A DNA stretch of 64,000 nucleotides, from NCBI GenBank assembly GCA_021773645.1, contig JAJFJU010000012.1, positions 186,001-250,000 on the forward strand, in the 5' to 3' direction. How positions within the stretch are numbered: the first letter of the stretch is position 1; every line of letters begins with the position of its first letter. This document shows, in pieces, positions 36,776-43,540 of this stretch. The notes under the pieces were generated by a model, which saw nothing but the letters and a program-made list of their open reading frames with translations, did no database searches and was not told where the DNA came from. This stretch comes from Gammaproteobacteria bacterium. Its GTDB lineage: Bacteria; Pseudomonadota; Gammaproteobacteria; HK1. The position numbers and the translations under genes were made by a program.

Positions 36776-36934
36776 GGAATCTCTGATTTATTCTGGGCGA
36801 AGTAGATTTTGATTCAAAATGCTCAGATTTGAGGCGCCGATCGCACGTAATAGTTAGCTATTGCGAAGATCGGTAACGAAAAATCTGGACATTTTGGGCA
36901 CAAGATACGAGTTCACGAATAGATCAGAGATTCC
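36776..36934. repeat. 159-nt MITE-like long hairpin element
   Basis: The terminal arms match at 17 of 18 positions (36776-36793 against 36917-36934; GGAATCTCTGAT.. facing ..ATCAGAGATTCC). Inside, CAAAATG..CAGATTT (36815-36830) pairs with 36881-36896 at 14 of 16, CCGATC (36837-36842) with GATCGG (36868-36873), and GTAATAG (36847-36853) with CTATTGC (36858-36864) around a TTAG loop. It occupies the 231-nt gap between sspB and the macrodomain gene. No coding frame of note. Confidence 0.85.
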
Positions 36935-41902: not shown

Positions 41903-41923
41903 CTCCACATATAACAAATGGGG

Positions 41924-42388
41924 ATGGCGGTGTTCCGAGGCGAAAGCACGCTCAACATGGATAACAAGGGACGGCTTGCCGTACCGCGACGTTACCGTGC
42001 CCAGCTGGGGGAGATGTGTGGTGGGGCGCTGGTGGTCACCATCAGTCTCCTCAATCGTTGTTTGGTGGTCTATCCCTTTAGCCACTGGCAGGACATCGAA
42101 CAGGAATTAAAGAACCTTCCCGCGCTGGATCGCAAGGCCCAGGCCATTCGCCATCTACTGATTGGCCATGCCACCGAGTGTGAACTCGATGGTCAGGGAC
42201 GCATTCTCGTGAGCCAATCACTGCGCGAATTCGCGAATCTGGAAAAGCGCGTGAAAATGATTGGTCAGGCCGGAAAATTTGAGCTTTGGAATGAACAGGC
42301 CTGGGCTGATCAGCGAGACGAGTTGCTGGCCGATGTGGGTGCATTGCTCGCCGAGCCTTCGGATGAATTACGTGCATTAGTACTTTAG
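41924..42388 (+). CDS. mraZ: Transcriptional regulator MraZ
   Basis: DNA-binding regulator at the head of the dcw cluster, with two AbrB-like domains (FRGESTLNMDNKGRLAVPRRYR and ATECELDGQGRILVSQSLR), each with the DxxGR motif. The start is uncertain: ATG 41918, ATG 41924 and GTG 41930 are in frame, and the family usually begins MFRG, which would favour 41930. ATG 41924 is given as a compromise, about 154 aa. A hairpin array separates it from rsmH. Confidence 0.93.
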   Translation: MAVFRGESTLNMDNKGRLAVPRRYRAQLGEMCGGALVVTISLLNRCLVVYPFSHWQDIEQELKNLPALDRKAQAIRHLLIGHATECELDGQGRILVSQSLREFANLEKRVKMIGQAGKFELWNEQAWADQRDELLADVGALLAEPSDELRALVL

Positions 42389-42392
42389 TGAA

Positions 42393-42536
42393 GCCCTGAT
42401 TAATACATCCATGAATTATCAGGGCAAGCACAAGGCAAAATGCGATTTTACCTTGTGCTCCATTTTCAATGGCTTAGGCGCCATCAAAAATGGCAGCACA
42501 TCCTTGTGCTGCCGAAACTCTGTTTAATCAGAGTTT
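42393..42536. repeat. Five consecutive hairpins between mraZ and rsmH
   Basis: Almost every base is paired. H1 42393-42425: GCCCTGAT..ATCAGGGC, inner CAT-CC-ATG. H2 42427-42459: 14 of 15 pairs with the loop GCG. H3 42460-42493: 12 of 14 pairs with a 6-nt loop. H4 42492-42513: GGCAGCACA-TCCT-TGTGCTGCC, perfect. H5 42515-42536: AAACTCTG-TTTAAT-CAGAGTTT, perfect and followed by TCTTAG. The outer ends CCCTGATTAAT and TTTAATCAGAG are themselves inverted copies. Confidence 0.9.
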
Positions 42537-42571
42537 TCTTAGACCGTAGCTGATACGGGAGGAATGGCCGG

Positions 42572-43540
42572 ATGGTAGAGCAGGCGCTGGTGCATGTGCC
42601 GGTCATGATGGAGGAGGTGCTGCGGCTGCTGGCACCGAGACCGGGTGGCACTTATCTGGATTGTACCTTTGGCCACGGTGGTCACAGTCGCGCATTGCTG
42701 AACTTGGTTGGTGAAAAGGGGCGGGTGATGGCCATGGACAGGGACCCGTGGGCGGTAACCGAAGGGCAGCGACTGGCGGCGGTTGAGTCACGCTTTTCTA
42801 TTACGCGTAGTGCCTTTTCTGATCTGGATACGGTGGCCAGTGCATGCGAGATAGTCGGGAAGGTAGATGGTGCGCTGTTTGATCTCGGGGTTTGTTCCAG
42901 CCAGTTGGATGAGGCCGAACGTGGCTTTAGCTTTCGTGGCGACGGCCCTCTGGATATGCGTATGGATCCGGAGACCGGCATCAGTGCTTGCCAGTGGTTG
43001 GCGAGAGCCCCTGAGCGGGATATTTCCCACGTTATTAAAGATTTTGGTGAGGAGCGTTACGCCCGTCGTATCGCCCGTGCCATTGTTTCGGCCCGCAGTG
43101 AGGAGGCCATTGAGACCACTGCACAGCTGGCAGAAATCGTACGTCGGGCTGTGCCTTCACCGAAGCGAAGCCCTGCTAGTCGCCGCCGAGGTGCCGCGTT
43201 GATACATCCCGCTACTCGTACCTTTCAGGCGATACGCATCTATATCAATCGGGAGCTCGAAGAAGTGGAGTCGGCGCTGCACAAGGTGGTGGAGGTGCTT
43301 GCTCCCGGCGGTCATTTGGCGGTGATTAGTTTTCATTCCCTTGAGGATCGCATCGTCAAACGCTTCATGCGCGATCAATCGCGCCCGCCGCGGGCCCCTC
43401 GTGGCCTGCCTTTGCCGGAGCCGGTAGCACCCCCCGCCCTTAGATTGCTGGGCAAGCTGCAACGTCCGGGGTCGGCTGAGATCGCGGTTAATCCACGTGC
43501 CCGCAGTGCCTTGTTGCGGGGGGCAGAAAAATGCGCCTGA
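42572..43540 (+). CDS. rsmH: 16S rRNA (cytosine-1402-N4) methyltransferase
   Basis: Methylates N4 of C1402, the same nucleotide modified by RsmI encoded just upstream. The 322-aa (MraW) protein has HVPVMMEEVL, the SAM loop DCTFGHGGHSRALL, DLGVCSSQLDEAERGFSF and SFHSLEDRIVKRFM. GGGAGG lies about 10 nt before ATG 42572. It overlaps ftsL by 10 nt. Confidence 0.96.
   Translation: MVEQALVHVPVMMEEVLRLLAPRPGGTYLDCTFGHGGHSRALLNLVGEKGRVMAMDRDPWAVTEGQRLAAVESRFSITRSAFSDLDTVASACEIVGKVDGALFDLGVCSSQLDEAERGFSFRGDGPLDMRMDPETGISACQWLARAPERDISHVIKDFGEERYARRIARAIVSARSEEAIETTAQLAEIVRRAVPSPKRSPASRRRGAALIHPATRTFQAIRIYINRELEEVESALHKVVEVLAPGGHLAVISFHSLEDRIVKRFMRDQSRPPRAPRGLPLPEPVAPPALRLLGKLQRPGSAEIAVNPRARSALLRGAEKCA

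Follow-up and report, generated by a model that had tools for sequence, protein, structure and literature searches.

The window, here the whole analysed stretch of 64,000 nucleotides (contig JAJFJU010000012.1, positions 186,001 to 250,000), contains a part of the dcw operon in which the mraZ–rsmH gap (144 nt) is filled by five adjoining hairpins, as read from the sequence and from folding. The features of the locus are as follows.

41918–42388, plus strand: mraZ (PF02381)
42385–42388, plus strand: left target-site duplication TTAG, which includes TAG, the stop codon of mraZ (TTAG present once at the empty site of genome G002)
42389–42538, plus strand: 150-bp five-hairpin element, almost certainly a MITE, with IS5-type terminal inverted repeats (covariance model R2, built on the five hairpins, matches at 228389-228538 of contig C4 with 123.5 bits)
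42393–42425, plus strand: hairpin H1, stem made of the left terminal repeat (folding, covariation)
42406–42413, minus strand: H1 loop, CAUGGAUG, with an A(N)GGA motif (sequence, loop conservation)
42427–42459, plus strand: hairpin H2, with a GYG loop (folding, loop conservation)
42461–42491, plus strand: hairpin H3 (folding, covariation)
42492–42513, plus strand: hairpin H4, the best conserved of the five (folding)
42498–42507, minus strand: H4 loop, ACAAGGAUGU, identical to the core of the SELEX consensus for CsrA, RUACARGGAUGU (consensus from PMC7652899)
42514–42538, plus strand: hairpin H5, stem made of the right terminal repeat (folding, covariation)
42539–42542, plus strand: right target-site duplication TTAG (copies aligned with flanks; empty site)
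42572–43540, plus strand: rsmH (mraW; PF01795)

Folding of positions 42380–42570 gave −74.8 kcal/mol on the plus strand versus −46.1 kcal/mol in shuffles (z −6.8) and −79.6 kcal/mol on the minus strand (z −7.8), and the real fold was better than that of every shuffle. The five adjacent hairpins that the original prediction had placed between mraZ and rsmH are thus borne out. The T-rich stretch that it had seen after the last hairpin (GTTTTC followed by TTAG) is actually the transposon end together with the target duplication. The sole terminator-like call within the element falls on hairpin 4 of the minus strand, and its T-run is not kept across the family.

Alignment of copies with their flanks revealed sharp limits, with ends of the form GGAAgCTCTGA...TCAGAGnTTCC bordered by 4-bp direct repeats, mostly YTAR; the 4-bp flanks were identical in 33 of 48 copies. 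The host genome holds two strong copies of the five-hairpin element, the second of which (85% identity by BLAST) lies between a CBS-domain gene and hemL, as named from their translations. In a search of 38 relatives, G031, a genome from another family of the class, returned about 20 copies at 70–76% identity, and two congeners returned no full-length match. The same mraZ–rsmH junction is present in the congeners G001 and G002 with the element absent, and the insertion is consequently specific to the source lineage. It left mraZ intact, because the duplicated TTAG contains the stop codon of the gene. The element is non-coding, with stops in frame 1 and no open reading frame of 90 aa confined to it. 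In combination, terminal inverted repeats matching those of IS5-family insertion sequences, a YTAR duplication with a corresponding empty site and dispersed non-coding copies identify positions 42389–42538, with near certainty, as a 150-bp non-autonomous transposon of the MITE type, the mobility of which is established at the level of sequence comparison. A putative IS5-family transposase recognising GGAA.CTCTGA ends and duplicating YTAR would move the MITE in trans, and in the source lineage the element would recently have entered the TTAG holding the mraZ stop codon. Both copies in the host genome (window 42385–42388; locus L002, 1494–1498) sit exactly at a TTAG stop codon preserved by the duplication. 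A general insertion preference for stop codons was considered and rejected, as the enrichment was weak (19/46 vs a 28% background, p 0.05) in a test that scored open frames in short loci.

Candidate partner insertion sequences were found in other carriers. Genome G318 contains a 1171-bp insertion sequence with ATAA flanks and the ends GGAACCTCTGATTAATT, and G276 contains one of 1220 bp with GGAAACGCTGA ends and CTAG, CTAA or TTAG duplications, matching the GAAACGCTGA ends of the element in the same genome. In G140, an insertion sequence with GGATGCTCTGAACAAG at one end adjoins a copy of the element via a common CTAA (L141, 1323–2641). All three encode IS5-family transposases (NF033581, 326–353 bits; cut-off 140) of the DDE type (PF01609). 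No insertion sequence with such ends was found in the source genome, where the single PF01609 gene found is without them. Another MITE of 158–160 bp, which forms a single hairpin but has the same ends, is also present in the source genome in 15 or more copies. One of these lies in the window at 36776–36934 (159 bp, a single long hairpin, GGAATCTCTGA ends, flanked by ACAG on the left and TTAG on the right), and end matches of this MITE are also abundant in the congener G002. An 865-bp unit with CTAG on both sides, GGAAGATCTG/GGAAGCTCTGA ends and a Ysc84-domain gene (PF04366) was observed at L060, 1333–2197 (G000 contig C4), and is possibly a MITE-like unit with a passenger gene. At L199 (6450–6752) and L231 (2450–2753), copies of the five-hairpin element form direct tandem pairs with about 4 bp between them.

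The supposition that the structure is preserved was strongly upheld by covariance analysis, in which 44–47 of the 54 pairs covary. Double changes were seen at 47, 46 and 44 pairs in alignments of 55, 62 and 29 sequences, with covariation scores of 0.46, 0.52 and 0.49, respectively, against 0.13–0.15 in shuffles; none of 500 shuffles scored as high, and the signal was lost when the partner column was slid by one. All three alignments were fitted to the five-hairpin structure, which favours that structure, and the 29-sequence set comes from genomes outside model building, yet found with one of the models. An end-to-end pairing returned by RNAalifold on the first alignment arose from the mutually complementary terminal hairpins and was set aside for the five-hairpin structure. 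Among 35 sequences not picked by loop pattern, the H4 loop reads TCC in all 35, and its flanking TG and C are likewise present in all 35; the H1 loop reads C-N-T in all 35, followed by C in 33, and the H2 loop reads GYG in 34. The same conservation was repeated in the 29 outside sequences. Stem sequences are hence exchanged almost freely with compensation, and two loops hardly change.

The core formed by H1–H4 and their loops also occurs within other terminal repeats. It lies between CAGGATGTTGAAAAA...TTTTTCAACAGCCTG at five loci (L193, L209, L222, L242 and L164), of which L193 and L164 show TTAA or TTAG duplications as judged by eye, inside AGGGTGTCGCAAAAG ends at L101/L207, and inside GGCAATCAAATAG and similar ends at L226, L238 and L240, of which L226 is the one variant-end copy found in Halomonas cupida DSM 4740. 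In these variant-end copies the H1 stem is formed by the new end sequence and the H1 loop is still TCC. The conserved unit is therefore the folded core, rather than one transposon.

In an even sample of 369 species of Gammaproteobacteria, the R2 model matched 73, about one in five, with E values down to 1e-54. Copy numbers at E ≤ 0.1 reached 132 in G031, 59 in G008 and 52 in G037, many genomic copies being what the original prediction had expected of a mobile repeat. A second covariance model, R3, was positive in 48 of the 398 genomes sampled from the phylum, and 44 of these belong to other classes. Among the matches listed in a pattern scan were Thioalkalivibrio, Sedimenticola, Halothiobacillus, Halomonas cupida, Marinobacter, Candidatus Tenderia, the Olavius algarvensis Gamma 3 symbiont and others. 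Copies were also observed in metagenome-assembled genomes labelled Nitrospirae (L188, L225) and Klebsiella pneumoniae (L171, L224, L234), reflecting either horizontal transfer or mislabelled bins. No Rfam family scored above its gathering score for the family, and the window copy returned nothing; the Csr/Rsm models of Rfam gave no match, with RsmV reaching 10 bits only. Plasmid and phage collections gave no match to the one family member used as query, and the open-access literature, subscription papers being outside the scope, held nothing on CsrA together with a MITE or on a five-hairpin repeat. This is a widespread transposon family that shares a conserved folded core and was not previously described in the libraries and open-access papers searched.

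The two conserved loops are distinctive on one strand. On the minus strand, A(N)GGA occurs in the H1 loop of 52 and the H4 loop of 55 of 59 genomes and in H2, H3 and H5 of at most two; on the plus strand the loops carry it in 0–3 of 59. The H4 sequence CANGGANG, present in 50 of 59, corresponds on the minus strand to an ANGGAX hexaloop closed by C-G. The high-affinity motif of RsmE is likewise an ANGGAX hexaloop set directly on a stem, with C-G closure in RsmZ (PMC4005645). Two CA(N)GGAHG sites were found on the minus strand in 25 of 35 sequences and on the plus strand in none, at a frequency of 0.06% in shuffles. Independently of the motif, the minus strand gave the better fold in 46 of 59 (p 6e-7), and the predicted folds contain 122 G-U pairs on the minus strand versus 63 on the plus strand. 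Before any correction, G.T and A.C mispairs are equally frequent (86:86), and a tilt to the minus strand (39:70, p 0.004) emerges only once four pairs that adjoin loops or have an ambiguous register are excluded, so that the strand is supported rather than proven. A first reading of the mispairs as acting at the DNA level only was revised after the loop-adjacent pairs were dropped and both strands were folded. The minus strand is probably the RNA strand.

The RNA of the element is, on the strength of these loops, a candidate ligand of CsrA/RsmA, to which we give slightly less than an even chance; the reading was made only once the loops had been seen. The H4 stems of about 8 bp count against it, since most CsrA SELEX ligands have stems of 4 bp or fewer (PMC7652899). 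CsrA is encoded in 26/26 element-bearing genomes of a first set and 44/49 of a second (70/75), and the five carriers without it are drafts of 240–470 contigs that are 69–95% complete. CsrA is missing from 35 of the 80 genomes in which no element was detected (Fisher p 1e-7), and within family f207 the split of element versus CsrA is 34/2 v 7/5 (p 0.007); this co-occurrence is confounded by phylogeny, and shared ancestry inflates both p values.

Simple ORF calling placed 80 intergenic insertions, of which 48 lie between tandem genes; the others comprise 23 in convergent and 9 in divergent settings. The tandem cases are divided equally between the same and the opposite orientation (24 each), and there is therefore no sign that host transcripts were selected to carry one strand. 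The mRNA of mraZ–rsmH bears the plus strand of the element, which places the proposed CsrA sites antisense to that mRNA, and no effect of CsrA on the dcw mRNA is expected. The original prediction had offered a control device, an RNase processing site or a mobile hairpin array. The mobile array is what the second copy, the duplications, the empty site and the copy numbers support, and a control device of the dcw operon is not. The related proposal of attenuation or specific control of the wall and division genes fails, given that the gap is empty in both congeners, the other copies lie near unrelated genes in both orientations and the T-tract is not conserved. A host-specific RNA device or attenuator for the dcw operon, suggested by the site between mraZ and rsmH, is largely refuted by the empty sites, and the unrelated neighbours of the other copies also speak against it.

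The explanation we prefer is that the conserved content is a structured RNA of five hairpins on the strand opposite mraZ and rsmH, in which H1 and H4 would display A(N)GGA loops, mostly with C-G closure, as a recognition element for CsrA/RsmA/RsmE. A transcript in the minus orientation should then bind CsrA, and binding would tie the RNA of the element, or a host transcript containing it, to the Csr/Rsm system; transcription, binding and its consequence are what we infer. That all parts hold jointly, namely an IS5-mobilised MITE, a structured minus-strand RNA and loops that bind Csr/Rsm proteins, appears evenly balanced. The wider possibility is put forward tentatively that the element is a regulatory RNA on the move, whose five hairpins form a module for Csr/Rsm binding that spreads through Gammaproteobacteria and other classes via several unrelated sets of transposon ends, titrating CsrA or adding CsrA sites to host transcripts where it inserts.

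The hairpins could instead act as DNA, forming cruciforms or single-stranded hairpins in transposition or replication, with a protein reading the loops and no function as RNA. Stem changes that run nearly all from Watson-Crick to Watson-Crick pairs with very few G-U intermediates, the equal raw mispair counts, the unbiased orientation and the making of the H1 and H5 stems from transposon ends would all agree with this. However, folding is better on the minus strand, whose predicted folds hold about twice as many G-U pairs, the conserved loops fit an established consensus for RNA binding, again on the minus strand, and the IS5-family partners use a DDE transposase rather than a hairpin-reading HUH enzyme, so that we regard a purely DNA-level role as rather unlikely. 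Less probable still is that the palindromes were perfected by mutation, through template switching between arms, in a MITE without any function of its own whose loops are alike through recent kinship. The scarcity of G-U intermediates and the unconstrained orientation would fit, but the loops are almost invariant despite many altered positions in the arms, and this holds across more than one class and inside various transposon ends, and the occurrence of the same motif in two separate loops is left unexplained.

A bidirectional terminator or insulator, making insertions tolerable and favouring convergent gene ends, would account for the smaller number of divergent than convergent contexts (9 v 23, p 0.02) and for the ATTTTT that follows H4 on the minus strand of the window copy. 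Against it, H4 is followed by a T run in some lineages and by an A run in others, owing to a swap of A for T in the H3 arm there; the window copy lies inside an operon, ahead of rsmH and the cell-division genes; and the loop motifs find no explanation. This role is accordingly very improbable.

IS5-family MITEs in general, and prokaryotic MITEs as a group (PMC10969869), are likewise short and without an ORF, with terminal inverted repeats, a 4-bp YTAR duplication, many intergenic copies and, in some genomes, a partner insertion sequence with matching ends. Unlike them, the element has an interior of five separate covarying hairpins with near-invariant loops, rather than a deletion remnant or one long hairpin, and the same interior is found with unrelated terminal repeats. 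Correia/NEMIS, ERIC, RU-2 and QMITE fold mainly by pairing of their ends and have narrower host ranges. These (ERIC also as RU-1) resemble the element in being small and mobile, with transcripts that fold and may affect nearby mRNAs (PMC10969869; PMC2759123). The five independent hairpins with conserved loops set the element apart from them, as judged by their general descriptions. REPs are not known to have terminal repeats flanked by target duplications. Together with BIMEs and RAYT transposases they share with the element intergenic palindromes in many copies; REPs measure 20–40 bp (PMC3733652). The partners of the element are DDE IS5 transposases.

CsrB and RsmX, Y and Z likewise have A(N)GGA hairpin loops with C-G closure (PMC4005645, PMC7652899), several on one strand, as for the two minus-strand loops here. 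They differ from the element in that it is mobile, has only two such loops, up to 132 dispersed copies and no Rfam match, and shows neither a promoter nor a terminator of its own: a simple scan for sigma-70-like sites inside it found none, and the terminator T-run is not conserved. The gyrA RNA motif (RF01740) was matched by the minus-strand H2–H1 of G025 copies (L101, 455–606) at 39.5–41.7 bits. Membership was rejected, the best score lying below the gathering score of 45; the consensus loop of RF01740 lacks GGA, and the window genome and most carriers gave no match to it. The Pseudomonas gyrA RNA motif might be a domesticated relative of the element.

Small non-autonomous transposons are usually seen as junk derived from insertion sequences. 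Here, the very strong covariation, two near-invariant loops, interchangeable ends and a spread over more than one class imply that selection acts on the folded product as such, and the loops point to the global regulator CsrA as a partner that can be tested. If true, this would supply a structured family missing from Rfam, and it would provide a transposable route to rewire or titrate a global post-transcriptional regulator.
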